From contig JAHEHL010000003.1 of NCBI GenBank assembly GCA_024644595.1, positions 62,001-126,000 of the forward strand: a stretch of DNA of 64,000 bases, written 5' to 3'. This DNA is from Porticoccaceae bacterium. Its GTDB lineage: Bacteria > Pseudomonadota > Gammaproteobacteria > Pseudomonadales > Porticoccaceae. Of this stretch, positions 527 through 24,516 are shown piece after piece. The first letter of the stretch is position 1. Every line of letters starts with the position of its first letter. The position numbers and the translations under genes were made by a program. The notes below the pieces were generated by a model, which saw only the letters and a list, made by a program, of their open reading frames with translations, had not been told where the DNA came from and searched no databases.

Positions 527-1726
527 TTACCAGCGCAGTTTTAACTCGTTGACCACACCGACGATACCGCTGCTAAAGCTAACGGGACTGCTTTCATCAA
601 CCTGAAAATCAGGAATCCGTTTCAGCCATTCTTCTATCGCGATACGCAACTCAACCCGCGCCAAGTTTTTCCCCGGACAGGTATGTGCGCCGCGACCAAA
701 GGTCAGACTATTGCCCTGCTTGCGCTCAAATTCCACATCTACCGCATTGGGTGTAAAGCTATTATCCATGCCCGCCAGAGGCGTTGGTGCCGCGATCATA
801 TCGCCAGCCTTTAACTGCACACCGTGAAACGTCATGTCTTCGGTCACTTCACGGGCCACTGTTACCAATGGGAAACGTCGTAAAATCTCTTCCACCGCAT
901 CCGCAACACTGACCTCGCCCTGCGATATCTGGCGGCGATGCGACTCACTTCGAGCCAAAAATAAAAACACAAAACCGAGCAGATTAACCACCGTATCGAC
1001 ACCAGCAATAAATACCTGAATGGAGAGTTTGATCGCCTCTTCCCGAGTCAAGCGACGGCCATTGGTTTCCGTATTAATCATGCGGCTTAGCATATCCGTG
1101 CCGCCTTGGCCCATACGTTGATCGACATAGGGAGCAATATAATCTTTCAAATTTTGCAGAGCATCGGCAAAGCTGATGCTGCCATCGGGACGAATTAATT
1201 GGTCGGTCCAATACTTGGTTTGCGGAATATCATCTTCCGGCAGATCCATCATCGAGAGAAACACCCTTATTGGCAGAATGTCGGCAAAGTCACGGGTAAA
1301 ATTACATTCGCCTTTTTCCACAAAATCATCGATCAGCGAGGTCACAATCGTGCGGATATCATCACCCATGGCATTGACTGAAGCCGGTGCCATGGTGTGA
1401 TTTAACGTCTTGCGGTAAAAATGGTGTTCTGGGGGATCTATGGTCGTGGGCAGCAAACCATGATCGGCACTATGGCTCTTGGGAAGAATAATACTGCGAC
1501 TGGAAAACCGGCTGTAATCGGTGAGCACCTCTTCGATAATCGACGAACGTGTCGGCAGCCAATGGCCCTCATTGGCCGGCGTCCAGACCAAAGGACAGGA
1601 GTCGTCCTCTTGCAACAGAGTTGCCCAGGCCCGATGAAAATCATCATCCAAACCAGGCGGGGTATAAATATTAAAATCTCTGATTAAATGTTTCGGAATA
1701 TGCCCTGGAACCACTGCATTACTCAT
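527..1726 (-). CDS. Cytochrome P450, P450cam (CYP101)-like
   Basis: A soluble 399-residue bacterial class I P450, a haem monooxygenase that should hydroxylate a small hydrophobic substrate. Landmarks in order: substrate-side motif DPPEHH near residue 98, I-helix AGVDTVVN at 241-248 with the acid-alcohol pair D244/T245 for oxygen activation, ExxR (E280, R283), and haem loop FGRGAHTCPG with ligand C350. The I-helix, the FHGVQLKAGD segment and the C-terminal SGIV...VNELKLRW resemble camphor hydroxylase P450cam more than fatty-acid or steroid P450s. It is the last gene of the run starting at the acyl-CoA synthetase and lies 3 bases after the SDR. No ferredoxin or ferredoxin reductase gene is adjacent. 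The substrate is unknown; a terpenoid or other alicyclic compound is an inference from the family. Confidence 0.93.
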   Translation of the reverse strand: MSNAVVPGHIPKHLIRDFNIYTPPGLDDDFHRAWATLLQEDDSCPLVWTPANEGHWLPTRSSIIEEVLTDYSRFSSRSIILPKSHSADHGLLPTTIDPPEHHFYRKTLNHTMAPASVNAMGDDIRTIVTSLIDDFVEKGECNFTRDFADILPIRVFLSMMDLPEDDIPQTKYWTDQLIRPDGSISFADALQNLKDYIAPYVDQRMGQGGTDMLSRMINTETNGRRLTREEAIKLSIQVFIAGVDTVVNLLGFVFLFLARSESHRRQISQGEVSVADAVEEILRRFPLVTVAREVTEDMTFHGVQLKAGDMIAAPTPLAGMDNSFTPNAVDVEFERKQGNSLTFGRGAHTCPGKNLARVELRIAIEEWLKRIPDFQVDESSPVSFSSGIVGVVNELKLRW

Positions 1727-1729
1727 GAT

Positions 1730-2500
1730 CTATCCCAGGCGGATCGAGTGGGCCGCATCTGCTGTTACAACCGAACCACTCATATAACTTGCCGCTTTAC
1801 TGGCCAGTAGCAAGATAGCACCGTCGAGTTCAGAGAGAGCACCTGCTCGTCCTAGAGGAAGATTGGCGAGATCAGCCTGGCCTGCTGGGGTCTCGTAATA
1901 ATCTGCCACCATATCGGTATAGAGAAAACCGGGTGCCAGCGCATTGACGCGAATATCGTGCTCGGCCAGCTCGTGGCCCATAACACTAGTAAGCTGATTG
2001 ACCGCCGCTTTCGAGGCACTGTAATGAGTCAACCCCTTAAACGAGGAGACCGCGCAAATCGACGAGATAGTAATAATATTCCCCGACTTACCCGCCGCCA
2101 CCATGCGCTGGGCACCTTCCTGAGCAAGGTTAAACACCCCTTTAACATTCACCGACAGGACGTTATCCCAAACTGACTCTTGCATCTCTAAAAATGGCTG
2201 GGCACCGGTAGCACCGGCATTGCAGACAATAATATCCGGTGTGCCAAATGCCTGTTCCGCGAGATCATAGCCAGCCTTCACCGAGGCGCGATCGGTCACA
2301 TCCATGGCTACCGCTAAGGCTTTCCCGCCCTTGGCGACAATCCGCTCTGCGAGACTCTGAAGGAGATCGATTCTCCGTGCAGCGCAGATGACAGCAACTC
2401 CATGGGAGGCCAGCATTTCCGCAATATGCTCACCCAAACCACTCGATGCGCCACTGACTAACGCGACCCTGCCCTTTACTGAAAAAATATTATCTGTCAC
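1730..2500 (-). CDS. Short-chain dehydrogenase/reductase (SDR)
   Basis: A 256-residue classical SDR, probably oxidising a secondary alcohol or reducing a ketone with NAD(P). It has the Rossmann motif SGASSGLG near residue 16, CNAGATG, the catalytic Ser in ITISSI and the YSASK catalytic pair. The usual C-terminal DGG is replaced by ADAAHSIRLG. Only 3 bases separate it from the P450 gene, so the two are co-transcribed; it may act on the P450 product, as the dehydrogenase of camphor catabolism does. That pairing is inferred from position. Confidence 0.9.
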   Translation of the reverse strand: MTDNIFSVKGRVALVSGASSGLGEHIAEMLASHGVAVICAARRIDLLQSLAERIVAKGGKALAVAMDVTDRASVKAGYDLAEQAFGTPDIIVCNAGATGAQPFLEMQESVWDNVLSVNVKGVFNLAQEGAQRMVAAGKSGNIITISSICAVSSFKGLTHYSASKAAVNQLTSVMGHELAEHDIRVNALAPGFLYTDMVADYYETPAGQADLANLPLGRAGALSELDGAILLLASKAASYMSGSVVTADAAHSIRLG

Positions 2501-2564
2501 AACATTTACCTTTTTTTATTAGTCGACGCGCTTCTCTTCACGCTGAGCGTCTTATCCGATTTTC

Positions 2565-3326
2565 TTAGAACTGAATTCGCTTAGTGAATCCACCGTCGAC
2601 AACCACATTGGTACCTGTGGTATAGCCTGAAATGGGGCTAAGTAAGAGCGCGACCTGAACGCAGACCTCTTCAGGTGAGCCCATACGTCCCGCTGGAATA
2701 TTGGCCACCGTGCTCTCATAGATCTCGGGCATCGCCGCGCGAATATCTTCCCAGGCGCCGCCTTTAAAATAGATTGGCCCAGGGCTTACGCTGTTAACGC
2801 GAATGCCAGCTGGCGCCAGCTCCTGAGCGAGATTGCCAAAGTAGTTGAGCAGCGCGGCCTTCATGGCACCATAGGGCACTGCGCCGGCAAAGGCTTCGAG
2901 AGAGGCGGTAGATCCTATACTGACAATTGCCCCGCAGTCAGACGCTTCTAAGTAAGGCTTCACCGCATTGACCGCTTTCCAGCTAGCCAGCACGTCAGCT
3001 TCGAAATTACTTCTCCAGCCAGACTCGGCATTATCGGCACCACCGGCACTGACATTTGCAACAAAACCGTCGACACCGCCTAGCGCGTCAGCACAGGCTT
3101 TAATCCAGGCTTCAAGTGATGCGCTGTCGGTGACATCGACCACTTCACCATGGGCCTTAACACCCATAGCTTGAATCGCAGCAACCGCGGCATTGACTTC
3201 GTCAGCATTGCGCGCACAGATACCCACATCGCAACCTTCTGCGGCCAGCGTCTTTGCCAGGGTAAAACCAATGCCTTTAGATGAACCGGTAATCAATACC
3301 GTTTTGTTTTTTAGCTGAAGATCCAT
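2565..3326 (-). CDS. Short-chain dehydrogenase/reductase (SDR)
   Basis: A 253-residue classical SDR with cofactor motif TGSSKGIG, an NVSAGG segment where most SDRs have NNAG, catalytic Ser in IVSIGSTAS, YGAMK as the Tyr-x-x-x-Lys pair, and a C-terminal VDGGF. The ATG is preceded by AGGA at a workable distance. It lies 52 bases downstream of the small acyl-CoA dehydrogenase gene and 64 bases upstream of the next SDR, in the same run. The substrate is probably a hydroxyl or keto intermediate of the pathway. Family assignment is secure; specificity is unknown. Confidence 0.9.
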   Translation of the reverse strand: MDLQLKNKTVLITGSSKGIGFTLAKTLAAEGCDVGICARNADEVNAAVAAIQAMGVKAHGEVVDVTDSASLEAWIKACADALGGVDGFVANVSAGGADNAESGWRSNFEADVLASWKAVNAVKPYLEASDCGAIVSIGSTASLEAFAGAVPYGAMKAALLNYFGNLAQELAPAGIRVNSVSPGPIYFKGGAWEDIRAAMPEIYESTVANIPAGRMGSPEEVCVQVALLLSPISGYTTGTNVVVDGGFTKRIQF

Positions 3327-3378
3327 AGTGGTCGTTCCTTATTATTGTTCGAATTTATTTAGTTAGCTTTCGTGGTGA

Positions 3379-4536
3379 TCACGAGGGCTCCACACTTAAT
3401 TGAGTGCTTAGCTGTGAGTAGCGCGACAGGTGAGAATCTCTGGAGCCAAACATCACCCCAATCACCGCCAGGCGTTTAAAATAATGTCCGACACTAAACT
3501 CGTCGGTTGTGCCTATTCCACCGTGAAGCTGCACCGCGTTGTGTGAAACATAACGACCCGCCTTGCCCACTTTGGCCTTCAGAGCCGCCACACATAACTC
3601 AGCATCCGCAGCGTGGTTATCCAATTTCCACGCAGTCGCCATCAGCAGCGACCGGGTTAATTCGATTTCCATAAACATATCGACCATCCGATGGCGCAAC
3701 ACCTGAAATCCGGAGATCGACTGACCAAACTGCTTGCGTTGTTTGGTGTAGTCTACGGTGGCGGCGAGCAGCGCATCCATTGCTCCTACTGCCTCGGCAC
3801 AGACGGCCACCATGGCTCGGGAGAACACCGGCGTTGCTGTCGCAAAGCCATTATGTAACTCACCGACCAGAGCCTGATCGCTCACCGCAACATTCTCCAG
3901 CTGCAACTCAGAGGCCGAGCGACCATCGTAGGTCTTGTACTGTGTAAGGCTCAGACCCGGAGTATCTTTGTGAATAAAAAACAAACTGATACCTTGGCTC
4001 GAGTCTTGCCCGACAGCGCCTGTGCGCGCCGAGACAATAAAGCAATCCGCTTCCGGGCCATTTAGCACCACAGTTTTTTTACCATTGAGCACAAAGCCGT
4101 CGGCACTGGACTCAGCCGTTGTCTGCACAAAAGTGGGATCTGCAACAGCGCCCTCTTCCAAGTAGGCAAAAGCCCCCTGTCGTTCACCGGCAATCAAGCC
4201 CGACAGATACTGCTGTTTAATCTCGGGCTGAGCGCCGGCTTCAACCAGGCCGCCAACCAAGACCACAGATTCAAGATAGGGTTCAAGGACCAGGTACTTG
4301 CCGAACTGTTCACAGAGAATCATCGTCTCCAGAGCACCGCCACCGAAGCCATCGGACTCTTCTTTAAACGTCATCGCCAGCCAACCCAATTCCGCAAACG
4401 TCTGCCATTGATCAGCGTCGAATCCGCGAGCCTGCTTAACGGCGGCTTGGCGGCTCTCAAAGCTATAGTTGTCGCGAAGGTAGCGCTCTGCACTATCGCG
4501 CAACATATTTTGCTCTTCGCTGTATTCAATAAACAT
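3379..4536 (-). CDS. Acyl-CoA dehydrogenase, PimD-like small subunit
   Basis: A 385-residue FAD-dependent acyl-CoA dehydrogenase. It begins FIEYSEEQNMLRDSAERYL, as in small-subunit types such as pimeloyl-CoA dehydrogenase PimD, and has KQRKQFGQ in the middle and QLHGGIGTTDEF near residues 336-347 in the C-terminal helical domain. The next upstream gene, 83 bases away, encodes a second, larger dehydrogenase. Such adjacent pairs often form mixed tetramers in pimelate and steroid side-chain degradation. It probably introduces an alpha,beta double bond in an unusual acyl-CoA. Pairing and substrate are inferred. Confidence 0.88.
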   Translation of the reverse strand: MFIEYSEEQNMLRDSAERYLRDNYSFESRQAAVKQARGFDADQWQTFAELGWLAMTFKEESDGFGGGALETMILCEQFGKYLVLEPYLESVVLVGGLVEAGAQPEIKQQYLSGLIAGERQGAFAYLEEGAVADPTFVQTTAESSADGFVLNGKKTVVLNGPEADCFIVSARTGAVGQDSSQGISLFFIHKDTPGLSLTQYKTYDGRSASELQLENVAVSDQALVGELHNGFATATPVFSRAMVAVCAEAVGAMDALLAATVDYTKQRKQFGQSISGFQVLRHRMVDMFMEIELTRSLLMATAWKLDNHAADAELCVAALKAKVGKAGRYVSHNAVQLHGGIGTTDEFSVGHYFKRLAVIGVMFGSRDSHLSRYSQLSTQLSVEPS

Positions 4537-4619: not shown

Positions 4620-5807
4620 TTAGAGATGCAAGACCCGCTTGGCAATAATGTCGCGCTGAATTTCAGCCGAGCCGCCGTAAATGGTTGCCGCGCGATTATT
4701 GATATATTCCGCCATAGTGGTGAGGCCGCAGCTTGGACCGATGGCGTCTCCCTCAAATCCGGGGACCAGTGCGTCAAGCTGTTTGACAAAAGCGTGTTCG
4801 GCCATTATTTCCAGACTCAATTCATTAAAGCGCTGACCGATTTCCGTGCCCATCACTTTGATCAATGACGACAGTGCGCCGGCATTACCACCGGCTTCAA
4901 AGGCGCCTTTAACGCGTAGCTCAGTAAACTCCAGAGCCAGAGCATCAACCGCAACATCGGCGACTTTGGCGGCAAAGACAGGGTTATCTTTCCACAACCC
5001 ACCACCAGCAGAGCGTTGCGTGCTGGCCTGATGATCAATTTTCGCCATCTGCTTTTTGTGATCTATGGTGAAGTTGTGACCGCCCCGCTCAAACTCCAGC
5101 AGCGATTTAGCCACATCCCAACCCTGATTTTCGGCGCCGACCAAATTGGCCGCGGGAACCCGCACATCATCGAAATAGACTTGGCACTGCTCGACGGTTC
5201 CATCCAAACCAACAATAGGCTCCACCGATAAGCCTTTGGTGTCCATATCGACGAGAATAAAGCTGATACCGGCCTGAGGCTTACCCTCTTTTGCGGTGCG
5301 AACCAGGCAGAAAATCTTGTTGGAATGCTGAGCGTAGCTGGTCCAGATTTTAGAACCATTAATAATATAGTCATCGCCATCGCGCACCGCAGCGGTGATC
5401 AGTGACGCCAGATCAGATCCGGCTCCGGGCTCTGAATAGCCCTGACACCAGACATCCTCACCGGAGAGCATGCGTGGCAAGTAATACTTTTTTTGCTCGG
5501 CTGTGCCGTAGCGAATTAACATGGGGCCAAGCATCTGCAGGCCCATGGCAAAAAGTGCTGGGGCATTGGCCAGCTTGCACTCTTCTTGGAAGATATAGCG
5601 TTGACTCAGAGTCCAGCCAGTGCCGCCATATTCCTCGGGCCAATCCGGTGCAACCCAACCTTTGGCATAGAGAATTCTGTGCCATTCCATGGTGGCATCA
5701 AAATCGGCAAACACACTAGTCATCAGCTCCCCCGCGCGCTTGATGTCTGGGGTCAAAGACTCAGCCAAAAAAGCACGGACATCGCTGCGGAAAACATTGT
5801 CGGTCAT
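4620..5807 (-). CDS. Acyl-CoA dehydrogenase, PimC-like large subunit
   Basis: A 395-residue acyl-CoA dehydrogenase of the PimC/FadE26-like type. It shows YGGTGWT near the N-terminus, CQGYSEPGAGSDLASL (flavin/substrate loop), WTSYAQHS and the C-terminal IYGGSAEIQRDIIAKRVL. At the place where medium-chain dehydrogenases carry the catalytic Glu (YEG) it has YGG (about residue 378), as do long-chain and isovaleryl types that take the base from another helix. The neighbouring small-subunit gene makes a heteromeric enzyme plausible. It follows the acyl-CoA synthetase gene by 162 bases and likely acts on the CoA ester that enzyme makes. Confidence 0.88.
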   Translation of the reverse strand: MTDNVFRSDVRAFLAESLTPDIKRAGELMTSVFADFDATMEWHRILYAKGWVAPDWPEEYGGTGWTLSQRYIFQEECKLANAPALFAMGLQMLGPMLIRYGTAEQKKYYLPRMLSGEDVWCQGYSEPGAGSDLASLITAAVRDGDDYIINGSKIWTSYAQHSNKIFCLVRTAKEGKPQAGISFILVDMDTKGLSVEPIVGLDGTVEQCQVYFDDVRVPAANLVGAENQGWDVAKSLLEFERGGHNFTIDHKKQMAKIDHQASTQRSAGGGLWKDNPVFAAKVADVAVDALALEFTELRVKGAFEAGGNAGALSSLIKVMGTEIGQRFNELSLEIMAEHAFVKQLDALVPGFEGDAIGPSCGLTTMAEYINNRAATIYGGSAEIQRDIIAKRVLHL

Positions 5808-5969: not shown

Positions 5970-7562
5970 TCAGGCCTCCGATTCAACCAAGGCTTTAACT
6001 TGCTGGCGCAAAACGTCTTTGCGCACTTTTCCTGAGGCAGTCTTTTGCAACTCATCACGCAGCTCTACGCGCTCGGGCCATTTTTGTTTGGCCAGGCCAG
6101 TTTCCTGCAAAAAGGCCTGCAGCTCGGCCATACTCAAGGTGGCTGAATGACGCATCACCAGAACCGCACAGACGCCCTCCCCGAGCCGCGGATGGGGCAT
6201 GGCAACCACTGCCGCCTCACTGATCATATCGTGGCGGTGCAAGACATCCTCGATCTCGCGAGCGGAGATATTTTCGCCACCACGAATAATGATGTCCTTC
6301 TTGCGATCCGTGATCACAATGGCACCCTCTGGGGTGATATGACCTATATCACCTGTGGCAAAGTAGCCCTGATTATTGATTGCCTGACGGGTTTGCTGCT
6401 CTTCGCCATAGCCGAGCATTAGCGCCGGCCCTTTGACCAATATCTCGCCATCCTCACCCTGAGCCAGCGACTGACCCTCATCATCGACAATTAATACATT
6501 CCAGTTGTTGATGCGGCCATCGGTGGTTGCCGCCAGAGATTCTTCTTCAGGCCGCATAAAGCCAACGCTGATCAGTGGCGCTTCGGTACAGCCATAGACT
6601 CTGAAAGCGCGACAGTTGGCAAATACTTCGTGCGCATCGGTTATGAGGGTCGGCGGCACCGAGGCACCGCCGCAGGCGAAAAATCGCAACGTTGGTAGAG
6701 CCAAAAAATCGCGCCGGGCCTTCTCAACCAACTCTTGCAAAAACGGTGTAGCACTGACACAGCCTGTGGCCCCCACCCTCTCTATATAAGTAACCGCCAG
6801 ATCAACGTCCCAGCGTTCCATAAAGGCGGTTTTACAGTCACTGATGAACGCCTGCTCAATGCCGTTGGCAAACCCTGTGATATGGGTCACAGGAGATGGC
6901 ATTAACATCACATCTCCGTCAGCAAGATCCCAGCCCTCTACTCCATTGTCGATGGCGCGGGCCAATGACTGGTGCGAGTGGCGAACTGCTTTTGCACGAC
7001 CGGTGGTACCGGAGGTGTACATAACCACTTTGACAGCGGACATATCTGTCGGCTGTTTTGCCGGCACTGACTCACCGCGTTGCTCAACTAAGCTTTCATA
7101 GCGCAACACATCGCCTGAGGCACCCTCGCGGCGCTCTTGATCGCGCACTGTAATCACATATGCCAGATCGGGCAGATCGGGCGACAGGCGCTCAATCATC
7201 TCAGGGAAATCATAGCCGCGGTAGACGCCGGGAATAAACAGACAGCGACAGCGACTGTCAGCGAGAATAAAGGCCAGTTCGTGATCTCGATATATCGGTA
7301 TCACCGGATTGACCACCAACCCCAACCACACTGCCGCTATATCTATGGCCACCGCTTCGCGCCAATTGGGAAGTTGAAAGCTAATCACATCACCGGCGTT
7401 TAAACCGAGCTTAGACAGCGAAGCAGCCAAAGCCATAGCCTCTTTAAAAATACTCCCGAATGTAATGTGCTCACCCGTTTCCAAATAGATAGCAACTGCC
7501 TCAGGCGTATTGAAGGCTTTTTCTTGGGCGTAGTCGGCTAGGTTTTTGGTACGTAATCGCAT
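5970..7562 (-). CDS. AMP-dependent acyl-CoA synthetase
   Basis: A 530-residue ANL-superfamily ligase that activates a carboxylic acid with ATP and CoA via an acyl-adenylate. Visible motifs are the P-loop-like YTSGTTGRAKAVRHSH (about residues 183-198), VYGCTEAPL, the ATGDIG segment with the ribose-binding Asp, ITDRKKDIIIRGGENIS at the hinge and the C-terminal catalytic Lys in KTASGKVRK. It resembles cyclohexanecarboxylate- and medium-chain-acid CoA ligases. It is the first gene of the run leading to the P450, and is divergent from the TonB receptor gene across 411 bases. The substrate is presumably the acid entering beta-oxidation in this cluster. Confidence 0.9.
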   Translation of the reverse strand: MRLRTKNLADYAQEKAFNTPEAVAIYLETGEHITFGSIFKEAMALAASLSKLGLNAGDVISFQLPNWREAVAIDIAAVWLGLVVNPVIPIYRDHELAFILADSRCRCLFIPGVYRGYDFPEMIERLSPDLPDLAYVITVRDQERREGASGDVLRYESLVEQRGESVPAKQPTDMSAVKVVMYTSGTTGRAKAVRHSHQSLARAIDNGVEGWDLADGDVMLMPSPVTHITGFANGIEQAFISDCKTAFMERWDVDLAVTYIERVGATGCVSATPFLQELVEKARRDFLALPTLRFFACGGASVPPTLITDAHEVFANCRAFRVYGCTEAPLISVGFMRPEEESLAATTDGRINNWNVLIVDDEGQSLAQGEDGEILVKGPALMLGYGEEQQTRQAINNQGYFATGDIGHITPEGAIVITDRKKDIIIRGGENISAREIEDVLHRHDMISEAAVVAMPHPRLGEGVCAVLVMRHSATLSMAELQAFLQETGLAKQKWPERVELRDELQKTASGKVRKDVLRQQVKALVESEA

Positions 7563-11996: not shown

Positions 11997-12027
11997 GTTT
12001 GTACCTCTCAATAATTTATTTTTTTTA

Positions 12028-15453: not shown

Positions 15454-16796
15454 TACCTCAACTGATCTGAATTTATAACATCAGTGCTCACATAATCATT
15501 GAGCAACTCATGAAAGCGCTGCACTCGTTTTTCTTGATGGGTCAAAATACAGCCATTAAAGCCTCTGGAATTGAGCCCCTGTTGCTGGCTGGTGCCAATA
15601 CTCAGATCCTGGTCTGCCACATAGCCAACGGACTGACCGTCACCATAAACACTGTGGCGATTTTCGGCCCACTCCAGTGGCATAGGCCCTATGGGTGTAA
15701 TAACTTCTGTCATGCCCTCAACCGGTGGTACCAACACCCAGTGGTGAAAGACACATTTTTGCGGGTCGGTGGGATGCGGTTCTGTGCGCAGGATCTGACA
15801 CTGCTCTGGTGACATGGTGATAGTGAGATTGGGAAATAGCGTGCAGTGAAAATAATCAACCAGCTGTTGATCGCTCATATTCTCGTAGTTGGTAAAGCCA
15901 CGCTCGGGGCCGAGACGACGTTTCGCCGCCACAATCGCTTCGCGTATATCACCGGTGTGGCCATTAAAATCTGCAGGATCAACATCCCAGGCTCGCGCCA
16001 CATCGTCCAGTGGTGAGGGTACTTCGCCTGTATGAAATTCCGGGTTGCGGGTGCTGGCCTGATGGCCTTTCATCCACATGGAGTTGTGGCCCGTTTCATA
16101 CATTTCAAACAGTGTGTCCGGCAGGCCATCGTTGATAAAGGTCGAGAGCTCAGGATGAATAGTGGGCAGATGGTAACTTTCGTTAAAGTTGTCGCGAATA
16201 ATTTTCCAATTAAAATTGGCATCGGCGGACAGATACATCACCCGAATCCAATTATCCAGGCCATAGCTTGCCAGCCTTTCTGGCAAGGGCGCCAGCCAAT
16301 CCAGCAGTGGCGCCACATCCTCATCCATGCAGTAAAAAATAAACGGGCCCCAGGTCTCGCAGCGCACCTCTGTCAGAGTTACCTTGCCGCAGGGATTGCC
16401 ATCGGGAAAGTCATCCGGGTCTTGAACATTGACCAGCACGCCATCGGGGGAAAACTGCCAGCCGTGGTAGCCGCAGGTGATTTTATCGCTGCCGCCTATA
16501 TCACCGAGTATCAGACGGTTGCCGCGGTGAGGGCAGGAATTGTAAAACGCTTTGATCGAATCATCGGCCTGACGGATCATAATCACCGATTCAGTCCCTA
16601 GATTATGACGAACATAATCCCCTTCCTGCTCAAGCTCGGCAACCATGCCGCCGAGATGCCATACTTTGGGCCACAGACGCTCATTTTCGAGCACCATAAA
16701 TTCACTGGAAATATAGCGATCTGCGGTGATGTGATCACCCCGCACTGGAAGATCAAAGCCCTTTGCATAGCGCGAAGTCTCAGCTTGCGAGCTCAT
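15453..16796 (-). CDS. Rieske non-haem iron oxygenase, alpha subunit
   Basis: A 447-residue ring-hydroxylating-type oxygenase. The Rieske [2Fe-2S] ligands are C88/H90 in NSCPHRGN and C108/H111 in CGYHGW. The mononuclear iron site is around residues 202-214, with H209 and H214 in NESYHLPTIH. Such enzymes need a reductase, often a ferredoxin, and a small beta subunit may be absent. No reductase or beta-subunit gene is nearby. It lies in a run of SDRs that could oxidise its alcohol or diol product. Whether the substrate is aromatic, steroidal or another ring compound cannot be told. Confidence 0.92.
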   Translation of the reverse strand: MSSQAETSRYAKGFDLPVRGDHITADRYISSEFMVLENERLWPKVWHLGGMVAELEQEGDYVRHNLGTESVIMIRQADDSIKAFYNSCPHRGNRLILGDIGGSDKITCGYHGWQFSPDGVLVNVQDPDDFPDGNPCGKVTLTEVRCETWGPFIFYCMDEDVAPLLDWLAPLPERLASYGLDNWIRVMYLSADANFNWKIIRDNFNESYHLPTIHPELSTFINDGLPDTLFEMYETGHNSMWMKGHQASTRNPEFHTGEVPSPLDDVARAWDVDPADFNGHTGDIREAIVAAKRRLGPERGFTNYENMSDQQLVDYFHCTLFPNLTITMSPEQCQILRTEPHPTDPQKCVFHHWVLVPPVEGMTEVITPIGPMPLEWAENRHSVYGDGQSVGYVADQDLSIGTSQQQGLNSRGFNGCILTHQEKRVQRFHELLNDYVSTDVINSDQLR

Positions 16797-16883: not shown

Positions 16884-17645
16884 TTATTTAGAGATCAGAC
16901 CGCCATCCACCACCAGTTCAGTACCAGTCACATAGCTAGACTCATCGGAAGCTAAAAACAGCACACAGTTGGCCACTTCCACGGGATAACCCATGCGCCC
17001 AAATGGCACTGTTGCGCCGAGCTTTTCAAACTCATCGGGATTGTCGCGACGGGAATCATTTTGAATATTGGTGTCGATCAGACCCGGGTGCAGGGAGTTG
17101 CAGCGAACGCCATCGGCCGCATGCTCAAGAGCAATGCTCTTACTGAATATCTGTACGCCCGCCTTGGCAATACCGTAAACCGAGACACCGGGAATTCCGC
17201 GCAGCGCGGCAACCGAGGACATATTCACAATAGAGCCGCCACCCGAGGCAATCATTGCCGGTAGGGCTTTTTTACAGCCAAGGAAAACACTGCGAATATT
17301 TACATCCATCTGCAGATCATAATCGGCTACTGAATATTCACTGATCGGACGCATCACTGCGATGCCGGCATTGTTCACCAGAATATCGAGACTGCCAAAA
17401 CGTTCTACGGTGGCATCGACAACTTCCTGCCAGCGCTGCTCGTCGACCACATTTTGCTCCATGGTCAGGACTTCAGCACCCATGGCAGTCAGCTCTTTTT
17501 CCGCGGCAGCCAGACCGACCATATCAATATCTGTGATCATCAGCTTAGCGCCCTCCTGGGCAAAGCGCACAGCCGTGGCATGACCCAATCCAGGGTTGGA
17601 CGCTGCACCGGTAATGATTGCAACTTTGTTTAATAATCTAGACAT
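16884..17645 (-). CDS. Short-chain dehydrogenase/reductase (SDR)
   Basis: A 253-residue classical SDR. The start is fixed by AAGGAG 6 bases before the ATG. Motifs are TGAASNPGLG (a two-residue-longer glycine loop than usual), NNAG, the catalytic Ser in IVNMSS, YGIAK and the C-terminal TGTELVVDGG. It resembles the group annotated as 3-alpha/20-beta-hydroxysteroid or cyclohexanol-type dehydrogenases, but specificity cannot be assigned. It precedes the Rieske oxygenase gene by 87 bases in the same operon. Confidence 0.9.
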   Translation of the reverse strand: MSRLLNKVAIITGAASNPGLGHATAVRFAQEGAKLMITDIDMVGLAAAEKELTAMGAEVLTMEQNVVDEQRWQEVVDATVERFGSLDILVNNAGIAVMRPISEYSVADYDLQMDVNIRSVFLGCKKALPAMIASGGGSIVNMSSVAALRGIPGVSVYGIAKAGVQIFSKSIALEHAADGVRCNSLHPGLIDTNIQNDSRRDNPDEFEKLGATVPFGRMGYPVEVANCVLFLASDESSYVTGTELVVDGGLISK

Positions 17646-17689: not shown

Positions 17690-18439
17690 CTAGATGGCAT
17701 TCCAGCCGCCATCCACTTCGAGCAAACTTCCGGTACTAAAAGACGACAGATCGGAGGCCAGAAACATCACCCCATTGGCGACCTCTTCAGGTGTGCCAAG
17801 CCGCTTGATCGCATGTCTGGTGGATAGCACCGATAAATCCTCAACCAAGCTCACAACCAATGGTGTGGCAACGTTGCCAGGGCAGATCGCATTGATGCGA
17901 ATATCCCGATCGGCATAGTCCACGGCGACAGTGCGAGTCAGTCCTGCGACGGCAAATTTACTGGTCACATAGGGCGCGGCATTCGGATACGTATTGCGGC
18001 TGGTGGCAGAGGCCATATTGACGATACGTCCACCGCCCTGTTTAAGCATTTGACGAATTTCCGCCTGCATACAGAGCCACACGCCTTTTACGTTAACCGT
18101 AATAACGCGATCAAATTCCGCCTCGCCCACCTCATGAAATTCCTGCAGTGGCGTTGCTGTGCCGGCATTGTTAACGGCAATATCGAGACGCCCAAAGCGC
18201 GCCACTATGGCCGTCATCATGGCACTCACATCGGCAGAATCGCTAGCATCGTTAAGTAATCCGAGCACCTCAGTGCCGCCCTTTTCGAGATCATTGACAG
18301 CCTTATCCAATGCCTCTTGAGAAATATCGGTGATCACTAGCTTTGCGCCTGCAGCGGCAAATGCCTGGGCACAGGCATAGCCCAACCCCGCTGCGGCTCC
18401 AGTAATCAGCACTACCTGTCGTTTAAAATCAAAAGTCAT
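17690..18439 (-). CDS. Short-chain dehydrogenase/reductase (SDR)
   Basis: A 249-residue classical SDR with TGAAAGLGYA, NNAGTATP, the Ser in IVNMASATS, YVTSK as the catalytic pair, NAICPGNVAT and a C-terminal STGSLLEVDGGW. It is one of four consecutive SDR genes spaced 44-45 bases apart. It probably interconverts hydroxyl and keto forms of a pathway intermediate using NAD(P). No feature decides its substrate. Confidence 0.9.
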   Translation of the reverse strand: MTFDFKRQVVLITGAAAGLGYACAQAFAAAGAKLVITDISQEALDKAVNDLEKGGTEVLGLLNDASDSADVSAMMTAIVARFGRLDIAVNNAGTATPLQEFHEVGEAEFDRVITVNVKGVWLCMQAEIRQMLKQGGGRIVNMASATSRNTYPNAAPYVTSKFAVAGLTRTVAVDYADRDIRINAICPGNVATPLVVSLVEDLSVLSTRHAIKRLGTPEEVANGVMFLASDLSSFSTGSLLEVDGGWNAI

Positions 18440-18484: not shown

Positions 18485-19246
18485 TCAGGTGGCATTACCG
18501 CCATCGACCATATAGACGCTACCGGTACAGTAGCTGCTGTCATCACTGCCCAAAAACACCATCATATTGGCAATTTCCTCAGGCTGACCGTAGCGACCCA
18601 GTGGCGTCACCGCCTCAACCATCGCTCTAAAATCACCGGCGCCCGCTTCAGCAAAGCCGTCTTCAATGGACTCCATCATGCGGGTTTCAACTGCTCCTGG
18701 ATTGACTGTATTGACCCTGATCCCGAACTGAGCCGACTCCAATGCGGCGCAGCGCATTAGGCCTATCACCGCGTGTTTGCTGGTATTGTAGGCAGCCGTA
18801 TTGGGCGAGCCCTTCACGCCGGCACCAGAGGAGGTAATGATAATGCTGCCACCACCGCCATCACGCATGACCGGCATCACATAGTGCAACCCCAACCATA
18901 CGCCTCTGACATTGACTGCCAATACCTTGTCCAAGTTGCTGACATCGGTGTCCATAATCGAACCGATCTTGCCCTCGACGCCGGCGTTGGCGACAAACAC
19001 ATCGATGCCGCCAAACCGGTCCACTGTGGCGCGGACCATATTTTCAACTTGGTCCGCTTCGGCCACATCGACAGCGATACAGGCACAGTGCTCAGAGCCA
19101 AGCTCATTGACCAGTTGCTGAGTGACTTCTGTGCCTATATCCGCGAGCATTACTTTGGCGCCTTGGCTGACAAATTTACGCACCGACGCCTGACCTATTC
19201 CGCCGCCCGCACCCGTGATCAATACCACTTTATTATTTAACTTCAT
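18485..19246 (-). CDS. Short-chain dehydrogenase/reductase (SDR)
   Basis: A 253-residue classical SDR with TGAGGGIGQAS, ANAGVEG, the Ser in IITSSGAG, YNTSK, VNTVNPGAVET and a C-terminal CTGSVYMVDGG. An acidic residue (LADIG) at the end of the second beta strand suggests NAD rather than NADP preference. Second of the four consecutive SDR genes. Substrate unknown. Confidence 0.9.
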   Translation of the reverse strand: MKLNNKVVLITGAGGGIGQASVRKFVSQGAKVMLADIGTEVTQQLVNELGSEHCACIAVDVAEADQVENMVRATVDRFGGIDVFVANAGVEGKIGSIMDTDVSNLDKVLAVNVRGVWLGLHYVMPVMRDGGGGSIIITSSGAGVKGSPNTAAYNTSKHAVIGLMRCAALESAQFGIRVNTVNPGAVETRMMESIEDGFAEAGAGDFRAMVEAVTPLGRYGQPEEIANMMVFLGSDDSSYCTGSVYMVDGGNAT

Positions 19247-19291: not shown

Positions 19292-20092
19292 TTATTCGCC
19301 AGGTATTTCGCCAGCCGCGACCATGGCATCAAATAACTCAGTACCCAAAGGATTGCGACGCAGACAGAGACCGCCGTTGACCTGTAAATTTTCACCGGTC
19401 ATAAAACATTCGTCAGAGGCGAGAAAGGTGGCTGCTGCGGCAATATCTTCACTGGTGCCAATACGGCCCAATGGATAGCAGCTTTCAAACTCTGCCAACA
19501 ACGCAGCGCTTTTTAACGGCTCTGCAGTCATCGGGGTCTCGGTCAAGCCGGGCGAAATGCTATTGGCGCGAATACCTTTGCAGCCATATTGATTGGCGAC
19601 ACAGCGAATCAGGTGGTCGGTGCCGGCCTTGGTGCCCATATAGGCAGCGTGGTCATCGAGCATAATATTGGCGGTGGCGGAGGAGATCTGGATAATCGAG
19701 CCACCTGTTGCGTCCATCGTCTGAATCAGTTTTTGCAGCCAGACAAAGGGCCCCTTAAATTGCAGGTCTATCATCTGATCAAGCTGCTCTTCGGAGTTCT
19801 CTGTCAGCGGTACCAACAGCCCCCATCCAGTGCTGTTAATCGCTACATCGATGCGGCCATGACGGTCGATAATACTGTCGACCATCTCGACAATGGAGGC
19901 TTTTTTCGAGAAGTCGCAGAGCACCCAATCGCCACCAATCTCTTCGGCGAGTTTGCGAAGCGCTGCCTCGTGACGACCAGAGACAATCACTTTGGCTCCC
20001 TCGGCAGCGAATCGACGCGCCATAACCTGACCCATATTATCTTCGCCGGCGGCACCGACTATGGAGACCACTTTTCCCGAAAAACGACCCAT
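19292..20092 (-). CDS. SDR oxidoreductase with atypical glycine motif
   Basis: A 266-residue SDR and first gene of the nine-gene run. The cofactor loop reads GAAGEDNMG, the NNAG motif is replaced by NSTGWG, the catalytic pair is YMGTK, and SDECFMTG is followed by GGLCLRRN. It is a paralogue of the SDR that ends the same operon (11229-11996). AAGGGG lies about 6 bases before the ATG. Upstream is a 356-base regulatory region after the tetR gene. Confidence 0.88.
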   Translation of the reverse strand: MGRFSGKVVSIVGAAGEDNMGQVMARRFAAEGAKVIVSGRHEAALRKLAEEIGGDWVLCDFSKKASIVEMVDSIIDRHGRIDVAINSTGWGLLVPLTENSEEQLDQMIDLQFKGPFVWLQKLIQTMDATGGSIIQISSATANIMLDDHAAYMGTKAGTDHLIRCVANQYGCKGIRANSISPGLTETPMTAEPLKSAALLAEFESCYPLGRIGTSEDIAAAATFLASDECFMTGENLQVNGGLCLRRNPLGTELFDAMVAAGEIPGE

Positions 20093-20448: not shown

Positions 20449-21126
20449 TTACTCTTCCATCAAATCAGCTTCTTTATAGATATCATGAAGAATCGCGGTC
20501 AGGTAGGTCATTACGCGTTTGGCTCGAGCGTTCTTGCGCGCCGACATATGGCTCAGAGCCATGCCCTTCATCAAAAACTGGACCATATCGTGCGCACCTT
20601 CAAGTCGCGCTAGATTTTTCCAATGCGGGAAAACCGCTTTAACGGTATTGAGAAACTGTTTTTCAAAGTCTTTTTCTACTGGCTCAATAATCTGTCGCAG
20701 CTCAGCGTCAGTTCGCGAGGCAGCAAGCATCTCTTCATAGGCCAAAAATGATGGCAGATTGACATAGCGCCAAGCGGATTCGACGGATTCACGAATTGCT
20801 TTATCGGTCAACTTGCTCGCAGGATCATCAATGTCCGCCATCAGGTAGCGGTACTCGTCCAAACGCCGCACGTGCAGATAGTCGATCACCGCGCGCATGA
20901 CTGACATACGCGATGGAAAGTGATGCATCATCGCACCGCGGGAAACCCCAGCGTAGTTAGCAATCAAAGCGGTGGTAGTATTGGCATAACCCAATTCGAG
21001 CAGACATTGGATGGTCGCCTCAAGAATCGCAGAACGCGTGATCGCGCTCTTCTCCGCCTGCCAACCCTTTTCATTGCGCTGCGGTCTTTTTTTGCTGGTT
21101 GCTGCGATTTTCTTTGCCGCTGTCAT
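20449..21126 (-). CDS. TetR-family transcriptional regulator
   Basis: A 225-residue regulator. A basic N-terminal tail (about 25 residues rich in Lys) precedes the TetR DNA-binding domain (helix-turn-helix around residues 45-75, including TTALIANYAGVSRGAMMHHF). The C-terminal ligand-binding part is variable. It lies at the end of the crotonase/dehydrogenase/kinase gene set and before the long SDR run, so it is the obvious candidate local regulator, probably a repressor released by a CoA ester or the substrate. The ligand is not predictable from sequence. Confidence 0.9.
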   Translation of the reverse strand: MTAAKKIAATSKKRPQRNEKGWQAEKSAITRSAILEATIQCLLELGYANTTTALIANYAGVSRGAMMHHFPSRMSVMRAVIDYLHVRRLDEYRYLMADIDDPASKLTDKAIRESVESAWRYVNLPSFLAYEEMLAASRTDAELRQIIEPVEKDFEKQFLNTVKAVFPHWKNLARLEGAHDMVQFLMKGMALSHMSARKNARAKRVMTYLTAILHDIYKEADLMEE

Positions 21127-21269: not shown

Positions 21270-21287
21270 GTTAGCCATTGGGCTGGT

Positions 21288-22304
21288 CTAAATCATTGCG
21301 ACCGCCATAGCCGCCAACGGTTTCACCAAGGCTCTCATTTGACTCGCCTTATCACTTGATGCATTACCTCCGAGTGCCCGCTGCCCGACGCCTTCGAGAA
21401 TCGCGGCAAAGCGAAACATACTGAAAATGACATAGAAATCCCAATTCTCAATAGCCTCGATACCCATGCGCTGACAGTAGAGCGCCACATATTCCTCTTC
21501 GCTGGGAATCCCCAATGCCTGACGATCAACACCTCCCAGCCCCGCCAGCACAGAGCGGTTATCGAGACGCAACTGCATGCACTGGTACGCGAGATCGGCG
21601 TAGGGGTGACCCAGCGTCGAAAGCTCCCAATCGAGCACGGCAATGGCTCGTGACTCCACGGCATCGAACATAATATTGTCGAGACGAAAATCACCGTGGG
21701 CGAGCACCAACTTACCGTCGTCTGCGGGAGTGTTTCGGGGCAGCCATTGGATCAGCTTGTCCATATCATCAATGGTCTCAATTTCCGAGGCCTGATACTG
21801 TTTGGTCCAGCGGCTAATCTGACGGGCAAAATAATTCCCCGGCCGGCCAAAGTCGCTCAGGCCAACGTCATCAATATCTACCGAGTGCAAAGCCACCATC
21901 ACCTGATTCATCTGATCAAAAATGGTTCCGCGCTGGGCATTGGTCATATCTGGCAGTGCCGGATCCCAGAACACGGTGCCCTGCTTAAATTCCATGATAT
22001 AAAACATACTGCCGATTACCGAGTCATCTTCGCAGAGATGATAAACCTCGACCACTGGCACCGCAGAGTTAGCCAGTGCAGACAACACCCTATATTCGCG
22101 GTCCACGGCATGGGCCGACTTTAATAAGTCGCCGGGTGGTTTGCGGCGCAGCACATAGGTGCCGCTTGCCGCCGTAATTTTAAAGGTTGGATTTGATTGT
22201 CCGCCGGCAAATTTTTCCGCGCTCAGCGGCCCCTTAAATCCAGCAATCTGAGCCTCGAGATACTCTGCCAGTTTGTCGTGATCAAAATCAAAATACGACG
22301 GCAT
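21288..22304 (-). CDS. APH-fold phosphotransferase, LvaA/ACAD10-11 kinase-like
   Basis: A 338-residue aminoglycoside-phosphotransferase-fold kinase. It starts with an FAGGQSNPTFKIT glycine-rich loop and YVLRRKPPG with the ATP Lys. The catalytic loop is LAHGDFRLDNIMF and the metal-binding site IAVLDWELSTLGHPYADLAY. This subgroup is typically next to, or in animals fused to, an ACAD10/11-type dehydrogenase, as it is here (41 bases upstream). In levulinate catabolism the related LvaA phosphorylates a 4-hydroxyacyl-CoA. A similar role on a hydroxyacyl-CoA is the best inference; antibiotic resistance is not supported. Confidence 0.88.
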   Translation of the reverse strand: MPSYFDFDHDKLAEYLEAQIAGFKGPLSAEKFAGGQSNPTFKITAASGTYVLRRKPPGDLLKSAHAVDREYRVLSALANSAVPVVEVYHLCEDDSVIGSMFYIMEFKQGTVFWDPALPDMTNAQRGTIFDQMNQVMVALHSVDIDDVGLSDFGRPGNYFARQISRWTKQYQASEIETIDDMDKLIQWLPRNTPADDGKLVLAHGDFRLDNIMFDAVESRAIAVLDWELSTLGHPYADLAYQCMQLRLDNRSVLAGLGGVDRQALGIPSEEEYVALYCQRMGIEAIENWDFYVIFSMFRFAAILEGVGQRALGGNASSDKASQMRALVKPLAAMAVAMI

Positions 22305-22344
22305 AAATTAACCTTTTATTGAGTAATTGCTGAGTGACGGCAGC

Positions 22345-23574
22345 TTAGGCTTTGGCGCCAGAATAACGCTCGATAATCTGCTTGCCTAGCGCCATCTGAT
22401 GAACCTCATCAGGTCCATCTGCCTGACGACACCAGCGCGCATAATTAAACGCTTCGGCCATACAGTAATCCTCTGTGAGACCTCCTGCGCCATGCATCTG
22501 TATTGCTTTATCCAACAGATTTTGAATTAACAGCGGAATGGTGGTCTTGGTTGCGGCGATCATATCGACTGACGCGGGAACGCCCTCTTGGTCGATTTTA
22601 TGGCAGGTCTTGAGTACTAATAAGCGCGCCATTTCAATTTCTGAATACATCCGTGAGATGTTTTCCCGCACCGACTGATGCTTGCTCAACTGACGACCGA
22701 AGGTCGAGCGTGCAACCGTGCGCTTGCAGGCCAATTCAAGTGCGCGCTGACCGGCACCAATCAGTCGCATACAGTGATGCATGCGACCGGGGCCCAGCCG
22801 TCCCTGAGCGATTTCAAAACCGCGCCCGGCACCGAGCAAGACATTCTCTAAAGGCACACGACAGTTTTCAAAGCGCAGTTCTGCGTGACCTATAGGCGCA
22901 TCATCGTAGCCAAAGGTCGTCAGAGGTCGAACTAACGTCAGGCCAGGCGTATCCTTTGGCACCAGAACCTGGGTTTGCTGCAAATGGCGATTGGCATTGC
23001 CGGGGTCAGACTTACCCATCACAATCAAAATTTTCGTGCGTTCATTCATGGCACCAGTAATAAACCACTTGCGCCCATTGAGCACCCATTCGTCGCCCTC
23101 TTGGACAATGCTCGTCTCAACATTGGTAGCATCACTACAGGCCACCTGAGGCTCGGTCATGGCGTAGGATGAACGGATCTCACCAGCTAGCAGCGGCTGC
23201 AGCCACTTATCTTGCTGCTGTTTGGTGGCGTAATTCATAAAGACTTCCATATTGCCAGTATCTGGTGCATTGCAGTTGAACACTTCTGGAGACCAGATCA
23301 CGCGCCCCATGACTTCGCAGAGCGGGGCATAGTCGGCAAAGCTGAGACCACCATGGTCGCAGTATTCGGCATGGGACGGCGGAACAAAAAGATTCCACAG
23401 ACCAGCTGCCTGAGCTTTTCGCTTCAATTCTTCCATCAATGGCAGTGGGGCAAAACGGTTCTCGGCACTGTGCAGCTGCTGAGCATAGGCGGCTTCGTTG
23501 GGATAGATATTTTGTTCAAAAAAGTGCTCGAGTTTTTCCAGCATCTGCTGAGATTTTTCACTGTTTTGATACAT
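22345..23574 (-). CDS. Acyl-CoA dehydrogenase, ACAD10/11-LvaC type
   Basis: A 409-residue flavin enzyme of the acyl-CoA dehydrogenase superfamily. Landmarks are YAMTEPQVACSDATN, WFITGAMNERT, ARSTFGRQLSKHQ and the C-terminal ADGPDEVHQ. In the latter, Asp stands where medium-chain enzymes carry the catalytic Glu, a feature of the ACAD10/11 group. The kinase gene downstream (41 bases) and the isomerase-like gene upstream (63 bases) suggest a module handling hydroxylated acyl-CoAs: phosphorylation, elimination, then double-bond rearrangement. This follows what is known for LvaA/LvaC and ACAD11; here it is inference. Confidence 0.88.
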   Translation of the reverse strand: MYQNSEKSQQMLEKLEHFFEQNIYPNEAAYAQQLHSAENRFAPLPLMEELKRKAQAAGLWNLFVPPSHAEYCDHGGLSFADYAPLCEVMGRVIWSPEVFNCNAPDTGNMEVFMNYATKQQQDKWLQPLLAGEIRSSYAMTEPQVACSDATNVETSIVQEGDEWVLNGRKWFITGAMNERTKILIVMGKSDPGNANRHLQQTQVLVPKDTPGLTLVRPLTTFGYDDAPIGHAELRFENCRVPLENVLLGAGRGFEIAQGRLGPGRMHHCMRLIGAGQRALELACKRTVARSTFGRQLSKHQSVRENISRMYSEIEMARLLVLKTCHKIDQEGVPASVDMIAATKTTIPLLIQNLLDKAIQMHGAGGLTEDYCMAEAFNYARWCRQADGPDEVHQMALGKQIIERYSGAKA

Positions 23575-23637
23575 ATTGCTGCTCCATTAACAGATGCTAT
23601 CGACAAAAAGGGGACAAATATAGTTGCGGCAAAACAC

Positions 23638-24516
23638 TTACCACCAAGGGTAAAAAGCTGGCATGCCAGAAGACACTTTGGACGGAAAGTTCGCAGGACG
23701 CTTCTCTAAGAATGACGCAACACCCTCCTTACCATCTCCCTGGCTGGTGTAGAACACCGCCAGAGACTCAACCTTGTGGGCCTCGGCCGGATGGGCCGCC
23801 GCTGAGTTGCGGTAGAGCATCTGACGCATCAGTGCCACAGCGACAGGCGCGGTAGTGTCAGCGATCTGCCGGGCCAGCTCGTAGGCTCTGGAAAGCAGCC
23901 TGTCTGGGGCGCAGACTTCGTAGACTAAACCGCCAGCAAGACTCTCTGCTGCATTAAAAATCTCACCTGACAGCATCCACTTCAGAGATTGCTGCATACC
24001 GACAATACGCGGTAAAAACCACGTTGAGCAACCTTCGGCAACAATGCCAATTTTGCCAAAGACAAATCCAAAACGGGCTTTTTCTGACGCCAGACGAATA
24101 TCCATGGCGCAGGCCATGGTTGCACCCACACCCACTGCAGCACCGTTGATGGCACCGATAACCGGTTTTTTGCAATCATAGATAGCCAGAGTAACTTTGC
24201 CTGCACTGTCACGAACGCCATCCATTTCCTCATAGGCTTGCATCTCTTCGAGGGTCGGAATGCGAGATTCATCGAGACCAAAGACATTGCCCTCAGCTGA
24301 GAGATCCATACCCGCGCAAAACGCTTTGCCAGCACCGGTAACCACAATCACGCTGACGTCGTCATCATCGCTTGCACGATTAAAGGCGTGCACCAGTTCA
24401 TTACACATTTCAATAGTGTAGGCATTCATCACCTCCGGGCGATTCAGGAACAGAGTCAGAATTTTGTTGTCGACTTGGTAGTCAATGGTCTTGTAGTCGG
24501 AGCTCTGACAGGTCAT
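23638..24516 (-). CDS. Crotonase-family protein, enoyl-CoA isomerase (ECI2)-like
   Basis: A 292-residue crotonase-fold protein. It has the oxyanion-hole segment FCAGMDLS (about residues 66-73) but lacks both hydratase glutamates: the first site is T133 (GVGATMA) and the second is FVFGK. Instead it has a Glu at about residue 161 in VAEGCSTWFLPRI, matching the catalytic Glu of peroxisomal delta3,delta2-enoyl-CoA isomerase (PEGCSSYTFPK in ECI2). An isomerase therefore fits better than a hydratase. It heads the run leading to the ACAD and kinase genes, and ACAAACCA lies about 135 bases upstream of its start. Confidence 0.87.
   Translation of the reverse strand: MTCQSSDYKTIDYQVDNKILTLFLNRPEVMNAYTIEMCNELVHAFNRASDDDDVSVIVVTGAGKAFCAGMDLSAEGNVFGLDESRIPTLEEMQAYEEMDGVRDSAGKVTLAIYDCKKPVIGAINGAAVGVGATMACAMDIRLASEKARFGFVFGKIGIVAEGCSTWFLPRIVGMQQSLKWMLSGEIFNAAESLAGGLVYEVCAPDRLLSRAYELARQIADTTAPVAVALMRQMLYRNSAAAHPAEAHKVESLAVFYTSQGDGKEGVASFLEKRPANFPSKVSSGMPAFYPWW

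Follow-up and report, generated by a model that had tools for sequence, protein, structure and literature searches.

An approximately 45-kb gene island of SAR92 bacteria with a CYP101-family P450 that may degrade a small alicyclic terpenoid

The camphor (cam) pathway of Pseudomonas putida relies on a cytochrome P450 of the CYP101 family (P450cam), a ferredoxin, a ferredoxin reductase and a TetR-type regulator, and Tyr96 of the P450 binds the camphor carbonyl. Within the family, according to the accessible part of PMC9655578, CYP101A1, CYP101D1 and CYP101D2 use camphor, CYP101B1 and CYP101C1 use ionone and are without the Tyr, CYP101D5 also accepts flavonoids, and CYP101B1 has no structure. A different system, described in the accessible part of PMC12440821, is the catabolism of 4-hydroxyacyl-CoA, in which LvaA and LvaC divide the labour like the parts of ACAD11. 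Here we describe a catabolic gene island that combines relatives of these systems. It lies partly within a 64-kb stretch of DNA, hereafter the window, from a Porticoccaceae bacterium (assembly GCA_024644595.1, contig JAHEHL010000003.1, hereafter C6, positions 62001-126000; window coordinates are C6 coordinates minus 62000). The source genome (G000) is 2.38 Mb in size and 98.9% complete, and the host belongs to SAR92. We propose, with a probability of about one half, that the window holds the right half of a single island that degrades a small alicyclic terpenoid, for which a norisoprenoid-like (ionone-type) compound or a related one of C10-C13 size is the likeliest choice.

A preliminary description, made from the letters of the window, had placed a large catabolic region at 527-24516. 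These bounds capture the right half of the island and are too short, since the island spans approximately 45 kb (C6:41647-86516), is cut by the left edge of the window and continues for about 20 kb beyond it, so that nearly half of the cluster came into view only when the contig was read leftward. On the left, the island is bordered by ctaA-like and cytochrome c genes (identified by eye; the cytochrome c gene is unmatched in G015) and on the right by lysS and prfB. Comparing neighbourhoods in related genomes, as the preliminary description had suggested, revealed that the island is collinear in five genomes, the source and four members of the same genus (G023, G011, G026 and G015), with an identical order over the 45 kb. 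Orthologues in the matching region were found for 44, 39, 39 and 40 of 44 island genes, respectively, a count that excludes the E1a gene and two spurious open reading frames (ORFs; G000_037 and G000_038) and scores matches of 25-30% as absent. For the 21 island genes that lie complete in the window the corresponding numbers were 21, 18, 19 and 18, and the grouping of these genes therefore exceeds chance. The TetR gene and the ACAD11-like gene adjoin the block of short-chain dehydrogenase/reductase (SDR) genes in all five genomes, and the crotonase gene ECH1 has no orthologue within the compared region of three of the four genus mates. More widely in the genus, the island-type P450 (at least 81% identity) occurs in 16 of 50 genomes, with 18 copies, and the Rieske oxygenase RHO3 (at least 82% identity) in 11 of 35, the copy in G016 being in two pieces. 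Two island-type P450 copies (86-88%) are present in each of G022 and G029, and G022 also carries two copies of RHO3 (93 and 90%).

The P450 gene (527..1726, minus strand; Pfam 75.6 bits, cut-off 22.8) encodes the sole P450 matched in the genome. The protein carries the motif FGRGAHTCPG, which matches the consensus F-G-x-G-x-H-x-C-P-G of the P450 haem-binding loop, and 166 of 395 aligned residues (~42%) are identical to P450cam. By convention, members of one CYP family share at least 40% identity, and on its sequence the enzyme belongs to the CYP101 family. The residue aligned with Tyr96 of P450cam is His89. The six further SAR92 copies that were read, each from another genome, also have His here, as do 16 of the 17 distinct P450s that are encoded near RHO3 genes of sphingomonads and match at E 1e-40 or better, including the one on plasmid pNL2 of Novosphingobium aromaticivorans DSM 12444. 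The seventeenth (L073, 37% identical) has a Trp at this site, while a second P450, encoded elsewhere on pNL2 (27%), shows a gap. Since the His-type pNL2 enzyme is not the solved CYP101C1, CYP101D1 or CYP101D2 (best 384 bits), it would by elimination be CYP101B1, provided that B1, C1, D1 and D2 are all of the CYP101s of the strain; a printed locus tag for CYP101B1 was not found in the accessible parts of PMC9655578 or PMC6237146.

The 21 complete genes of 527-24516 were recovered as ORFs and scanned against Pfam and NCBIfam, which matched the stated families (NCBIfam for 20 of 21). This confirmed every ORF and family that had been listed for 527-24516, namely the P450, a Rieske oxygenase, seven SDRs, a medium-chain dehydrogenase/reductase (MDR), three acyl-CoA dehydrogenases (ACADs), a ligase, two crotonases, a TonB receptor and a TetR regulator. 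The list had lacked three proteins, of the DUF3604, VOC and APH-type kinase families. In the window, the island genes lie on the minus strand unless marked otherwise. At the left edge is the 3' end of a gene for a ThuA-domain protein (1..443, plus strand; PF06283, 75.7 bits), the whole of which occupies C6:61637-62443 and starts outside the window. The P450 gene is followed by those for SDR2 (1730..2500) and SDR3 (2565..3326; both Pfam and NCBIfam) and for two acyl-CoA dehydrogenases, one PimD-like (3379..4536; TIGR03203, 331.1 bits against a cut-off of 652.7) and one PimC-like (4620..5807; TIGR03204, 359 bits against 623.85), neither of which reaches the NCBIfam cut-off for pimeloyl-CoA dehydrogenase. 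An AMP-forming acyl-CoA synthetase (5970..7562) and a TonB-dependent receptor (7974..10196, plus strand; both Pfam and NCBIfam) precede ECH1 (10299..11129, plus strand; Pfam). To the right lie SDR4 (11229..12011; Pfam and NCBIfam), a zinc-less MDR of the curcumin/leukotriene-B4 reductase group (MDR4, 12028..13044; NF058644, 372.1 bits, cut-off 440), the DUF3604 protein (13041..14909; PF12228, 821.8 bits), for which no solved relative was found at E 0.01, and the VOC/glyoxalase-fold protein (14935..15453; Pfam PF00903 and NCBIfam). The last two have a hydrophobic, signal-like N terminus as judged by eye. The non-haem iron oxygenase RHO3 (15453..16796; Pfam Rieske/Ring_hydroxyl_A) is followed by SDR5 (16884..17645), SDR6 (17690..18439), SDR7 (18485..19246), SDR8 (19292..20092) and the TetR-family regulator (20449..21126; all Pfam and NCBIfam). 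The right end comprises an APH-fold, LvaA/ACAD11-kinase-like kinase (21288..22304; Pfam) and an LvaC/ACAD11-like acyl-CoA dehydrogenase (22345..23574; Pfam), both also identified by comparison with solved chains, and the crotonase ECH2 (23638..24516; Pfam and alignment to a solved relative). Both usual catalytic glutamates of ECH2 are apparently missing, as they are in its closest solved relative, 6ijk (alignment, judged by eye).

The left half of the island, which went beyond the view of the preliminary description, begins with a ferredoxin reductase (C6:41647-42876) and a [2Fe-2S] ferredoxin (C6:42924-43244; family scan). Family scans covered the proteins of this half except the reductase, one SDR and MDR2, whose names come from inspection by eye or from BLAST matches to paralogues. 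Between the ferredoxin and a DUF35 protein (ChsH2 OB-fold; C6:48505-48936; family scan) lie the genes for a pyruvate dehydrogenase (PDH)-like complex (E1a, E1b, E2 and E3); a separate housekeeping-type PDH E1 is encoded elsewhere in the genome. The DUF35 gene is followed by one for a thiolase-like protein with an SCP2/Bbs-type fold (C6:48940-50082; family scan) and by the Rieske oxygenase gene RHO1 (C6:50103-51491; family scan). To the right of RHO1 are, in order, a Rieske ferredoxin, MDR1, GFA, SDR, MDR2, SnoaL, ABM, SnoaL, an HSL-type hydrolase, MDR3, SnoaL, an SRPBCC protein, ABM and the third Rieske oxygenase, RHO2 (C6:60414-61640; family scan). In total, the island therefore has three Rieske oxygenases (RHO1-3) and one Rieske ferredoxin, and MDR1-3 all lie left of the window. 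In the thiolase-like protein, the nucleophile-type Cys77 is kept in all three aligned homologues (SAR92, pNL2 and Sphingobium TomTYG65). Since Gln279 and Glu329 replace, in all three, the HDxF/GHP histidines of BbsB and SCP2 thiolase, the enzyme is on this alignment no ordinary thiolase, and it may cleave its substrate by retro-Claisen or retro-aldol chemistry.

No model for Ring_hydroxyl_B or for an extradiol or intradiol dioxygenase scored above cut-off among the scanned island proteins. FMO-like (PF00743) matches were found on contigs C1 and C7 and none on C6, in a search whose control matched 7 of 14 genomes and is hence unspecific; the negative concerns a cam-type Baeyer-Villiger monooxygenase of the FMO-like type on C6, other types not having been searched genome-wide. 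The earlier statement that no ring-cleavage enzyme is present thus holds for the island as scanned but not for the genome, where FMO-like proteins and an extradiol-type dioxygenase are encoded outside the island. The SnoaL-like, ABM and polyketide-cyclase-fold proteins of the left half might be taken as tailoring enzymes of a polyketide-like biosynthetic cluster. We regard this as very improbable, given that no polyketide synthase, nonribosomal peptide synthetase or terpene synthase was found among the proteins scanned with Pfam in both halves, and that a TonB receptor, CoA ligase, acyl-CoA dehydrogenases, crotonases and a PDH-like complex suit degradation.

For degradation of an alicyclic terpenoid, the protein families suggest the following substrate range, order of steps and mode of ring opening. 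The TonB receptor would take up the compound, and the ferredoxin reductase and [2Fe-2S] ferredoxin would supply the CYP101-type P450, which would hydroxylate the ring. SDRs would oxidise the resulting alcohols, zinc-less MDRs would reduce enone double bonds, and the three Rieske oxygenases, with electrons delivered via the Rieske ferredoxin, would oxidise the product further. Ring opening might then occur through C-C cleavage without a recognised extradiol dioxygenase or an island-encoded Baeyer-Villiger enzyme; a crotonase, the PDH-like complex and the pair of DUF35 and thiolase-like proteins are candidates for this step. Beta-oxidation would proceed through the ligase, the PimC/PimD-like dehydrogenases and a crotonase, and the kinase/ACAD11-like pair would remove a 4-hydroxyacyl-CoA intermediate via a phosphate ester. 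The preliminary description had likewise argued for one pathway acting on a hydrophobic, alicyclic compound, and its interpretation is partly supported, by the synteny, the CYP101 P450, the set of ligase, acyl-CoA dehydrogenases and crotonases, and the TonB receptor.

We next consider the relatives of the island outside SAR92, a link that the preliminary description could not have seen. A genome-wide scan with an RHO3 alignment yielded 401 relatives, and the best 80 were retained: the 13 closest are from SAR92/Porticoccaceae or Pseudomonadales, including HTCC2207, MOLA455 and H921, and the other 67 are from sphingomonads. The Rieske ligand pattern is C-x-H ... C-x2-H, and the RHO3 ligands Cys88, His90, Cys108 and His111 are invariant in nine of nine aligned sequences. 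Within flanks of at most 10 kb, and by best-match labels, the 67 sphingomonad loci contain RHO3 (67), RHO2 (37), ThuA (36), the ligase (31), SDR8 (24, median identity 58%), SDR3 (22, median 47%), the P450 (17) and the thiolase-like protein (11). On pNL2, the homologous region is SARO_RS18520-RS18680, where RHO3 (SARO_RS18555, 70%), the P450 (SARO_RS18540, 45%), ThuA, DUF35, the thiolase-like protein, an acyl-CoA dehydrogenase, E1a, E1b and E2 are encoded within 30 kb. A related gene set is also present in Sphingobium TomTYG65 (RHO3 50%). As side observations, pNL2 has an annotated 8'-apo-carotenoid cleaving dioxygenase (198148-199557) about 43 kb from RHO3 with many genes between, and a plasmid of Novosphingobium capsulatum (L041) carries a related cluster with a GH1 beta-glucosidase beside puf/bch photosynthesis genes.

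In a tree of 90 RHO3 rows, 10 of them paralogues serving as outgroup, the 14 SAR92 rows form a single clade with support, which groups with three sphingomonad rows (100/100) and is nested within the sphingomonads, in a topology with a very long outgroup branch, several weak backbone forks and bootstrap values that are not fully settled. RHO3 identity is 70-81% between SAR92 and sphingomonads and 73-81% within sphingomonads, excluding TomTYG65, whose RHO3 is 48-51% identical to all others. The other genes are less alike across the groups than within sphingomonads (thiolase-like protein, 59-62 vs 65-85%; ThuA, 61-70 vs 69-85%; E1b, 58-60 vs 71%), taking the best match per locus, where some SDR8, RHO2 and RHO1 rows are paralogues. 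One recent transfer of the whole island from sphingomonads was rejected for this reason. Since only RHO3 is about as similar across the groups as within sphingomonads, the shared backbone is old, and a later or separate move of RHO3 is probable.

Sphingomonads are known degraders of aromatic compounds, and the relatives found there, together with three Rieske oxygenases, a Rieske ferredoxin and a VOC protein whose superfamily (PF00903) also contains dioxygenases, could indicate an aromatic or phenolic substrate (a lignan, alkylphenol or polycyclic aromatic hydrocarbon-like compound) with the Rieske proteins acting as ring hydroxylases. This reading is unlikely. The best scores of RHO2 and RHO3 are to monooxygenases of the glycine-betaine/carnitine type, no Ring_hydroxyl_B or ring-cleaving dioxygenase match above cut-off came from the island proteins scanned, and the sole match of the genome search to TIGR03213 lies on C7 (the control matched 5 of 14 genomes, in none over the cut-off). 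In addition, most CYP101 substrates described in the accessible part of PMC9655578 are camphor and ionones, with flavonoids also taken by CYP101D5.

A steroid-like substrate had also been considered, and this suggestion is weakened by a 9,10-seco steroid-type locus on a separate contig (C7:270001-320000). Its ORFs are HsaA-, HsaC-, HsaD-, KstD-, KshA-, CoA-transferase- and FadD3-like, several of them named by eye; the FadD3-like ligase (677.3 vs 657) and an aldolase pass their cut-offs, and the KstD-like (532.7/789), HsaA-like (286.2/450) and HsaC-like (301.5/366.45) proteins fall below theirs. An island that degrades sterols or steroids and feeds this locus would be in keeping with its presence in the same genome, with the steroid side-chain degradation known for a DUF35-associated aldolase (PMC8399759, accessible part) and with the naming of TomTYG65, which has a related cluster, in a paper on tomatine-degrading Sphingobium (PMC10653915, accessible part). 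We consider it quite improbable, because the HsaA, HsaC and KstD homologues are on C7, unlinked to the island, and no P450 other than the CYP101-type enzyme was matched in the genome. HsaA homologues (E 1e-100) occur in 8 of 50 genus genomes, 4 of the 16 with the island P450 and 4 of the 34 without it (Fisher p = 0.25, not significant); 12 of the 16 have none, and six of these are at least 96% complete. Steroid degradation as the main role was therefore rejected. The word SAR92 was not found in the accessible main texts of two surveys (PMC4810484 and PMC5790920).

Several observations weigh against the proposed terpenoid pathway. A link to carotenoid oxygenases was dropped as support: RPE65 homologues occur in 17 of the 50 genomes of the genus and are no more frequent among carriers of the island P450 (5 of 16) than among the others (12 of 34; p = 1.0). 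In the source genome itself, the RPE65 gene (C6:137989-139356) is outside the island, 51 kb to its right, and adjoins ORFs that look ligase- and thiolase-like by eye. The best-scoring solved relative of the P450 is CYP101J2 (372.6 bits), which keeps the Tyr and, going by a paper title, is reportedly tied to 1,8-cineole. The published CYP101B1 products disagree, being 4-hydroxy-beta-ionone in PMC9655578 and the 3-hydroxy compound in PMC6237146 (accessible parts of both). Since only 17 of the 67 sphingomonad RHO3 loci have a P450 in their 10-kb flanks, the P450 may be an add-on to RHO3 clusters, and no locus of this set gave a best match to the ferredoxin, reductase, DUF3604 protein, kinase or ACAD11-like protein. 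Among the four genus mates, the position of the ferredoxin reductase is conserved only in G023, and the kinase is missing from the compared region in three. Finally, no operator common to all island parts was found in 17 intergenic stretches, where no palindrome is present in all five genomes. Of the four settings of this screen, a single one exceeded every one of 60 shuffled controls, with two stretches where the shuffles gave one at most; the remaining three did not. Two palindromes are possible regulator sites that as a set are not clearly above chance: AACAAACATGTTTGAT at C6:58907, outside the window, is kept in three of five genomes, and AAACAGACATGCATGTTT at C6:82159 (window 20159) has a variant in two other genomes.

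These points bear on whether the island serves one substrate at all. The kinase ORF carries the motifs HGDFRLDN and DWE, which we take to be kinase motifs; its best solved match is 3dxp (378.2 bits), and kinase and acyl-CoA dehydrogenase each match one part of solved ACAD11 (8v3u; 265.6 and 377.7 bits). The pair is thus likely to form an Lva/ACAD11-type module, with phosphorylation of a 4-hydroxyacyl-CoA as its predicted reaction. The island-type kinase (at least 76%) occurs in 9 of 50 genus genomes, and a copy of 59-70% identity lies elsewhere in many other genus genomes and in the source genome, where the second kinase, outside the island, is 60% identical. Alternatively, the island might consist of two or more neighbouring pathways: its left and central parts, with the P450, would serve a terpenoid, and an independent lva-like 4-hydroxy-acid operon with its own TetR and crotonase would occupy the right end, the parts being joined by position rather than by one substrate. 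In favour of such an arrangement, which we judge rather unlikely, the right operon (ECH2, ACAD11-like gene, kinase and TetR) varies independently, ECH2 being missing from one genus mate in addition to the losses of the kinase and having its best match in a single sphingomonad locus within the 10-kb flanks; the second kinase and the lack of a shared operator point the same way. The identical 45-kb order in five genomes, with TetR and ACAD11-like gene staying beside the SDR block, argues for one unit.

Returning to the terpenoid pathway, a more specific version is tentative and, on balance, doubtful. The island might represent the complete natural pathway of CYP101B1-type ionone hydroxylases, common to SAR92 and sphingomonads, for norisoprenoids from algal or plant carotenoids. 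The trimethylcyclohexane ring would be opened by the histidine-less thiolase-fold/DUF35 enzyme and the dedicated PDH-like complex, with no Baeyer-Villiger or extradiol enzyme of its own, and 4-hydroxyacyl-CoA would pass through a phosphate-ester step. No natural pathway for CYP101B1-type P450s is named in the accessible parts of the literature searched, no substrate is assigned to the homologous sphingomonad clusters in the literature found, and no paper describing the island was recognised in a search that included PMC3907726 and the accessible parts of PMC10653915, PMC4810484, PMC5790920 and PMC8399759. CYP101B1-type P450s have been studied for ionone oxidation, and here a conserved gene set surrounds them. 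Cultured carriers (SAR92 isolates and N. aromaticivorans) make the substrate and the ring-opening chemistry directly testable. If the substrate is an algal norisoprenoid, the island would represent an additional path for carbon of carotenoid origin in coastal waters, and the histidine-less thiolase-like enzyme poses a separate question of enzymology.

Taken together, the island resembles several known systems and coincides with none. Like the cam pathway, it has a CYP101 P450, a ferredoxin, a ferredoxin reductase and a TetR-type regulator, but it has His in place of Tyr96 and, instead of an FMO-like Baeyer-Villiger enzyme, Rieske oxygenases and a PDH-like complex. Its P450 shares with CYP101B1 and CYP101C1 the family and the absence of Tyr from the camphor-binding position; it is only ~45% identical to the probable CYP101B1 of pNL2, and ionone hydroxylation is a prediction from this likeness. 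As in the lva operon and in ACAD10-ACAD11, an APH-fold kinase adjoins an acyl-CoA dehydrogenase, the two matching the two parts of ACAD11; unlike in the lva operon, the pair sits in a much larger gene set, nothing points to levulinate, and the kinase is not always in place. The adjoining DUF35 and thiolase-fold genes are arranged as for BbsAB (7pxp, 151.2 bits), although the island enzyme is without the two usual catalytic histidines, and likewise as for the DUF35-linked steroid aldolase 6ok1 (102.2 bits), presumably Ltp2. The pNL2 region shares the His-type CYP101 P450, RHO3 (70%), ThuA, DUF35 with the thiolase-like protein (59%), a PimC-like acyl-CoA dehydrogenase (43%), E1b (60%) with E1a and E2, TonB receptors and SnoaL/NTF2-type proteins. 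It differs in gene order and in its annotation, which lists four Rieske oxygenases and an FAD oxidoreductase but, in the stretches viewed, no kinase/ACAD11 pair and no DUF3604.

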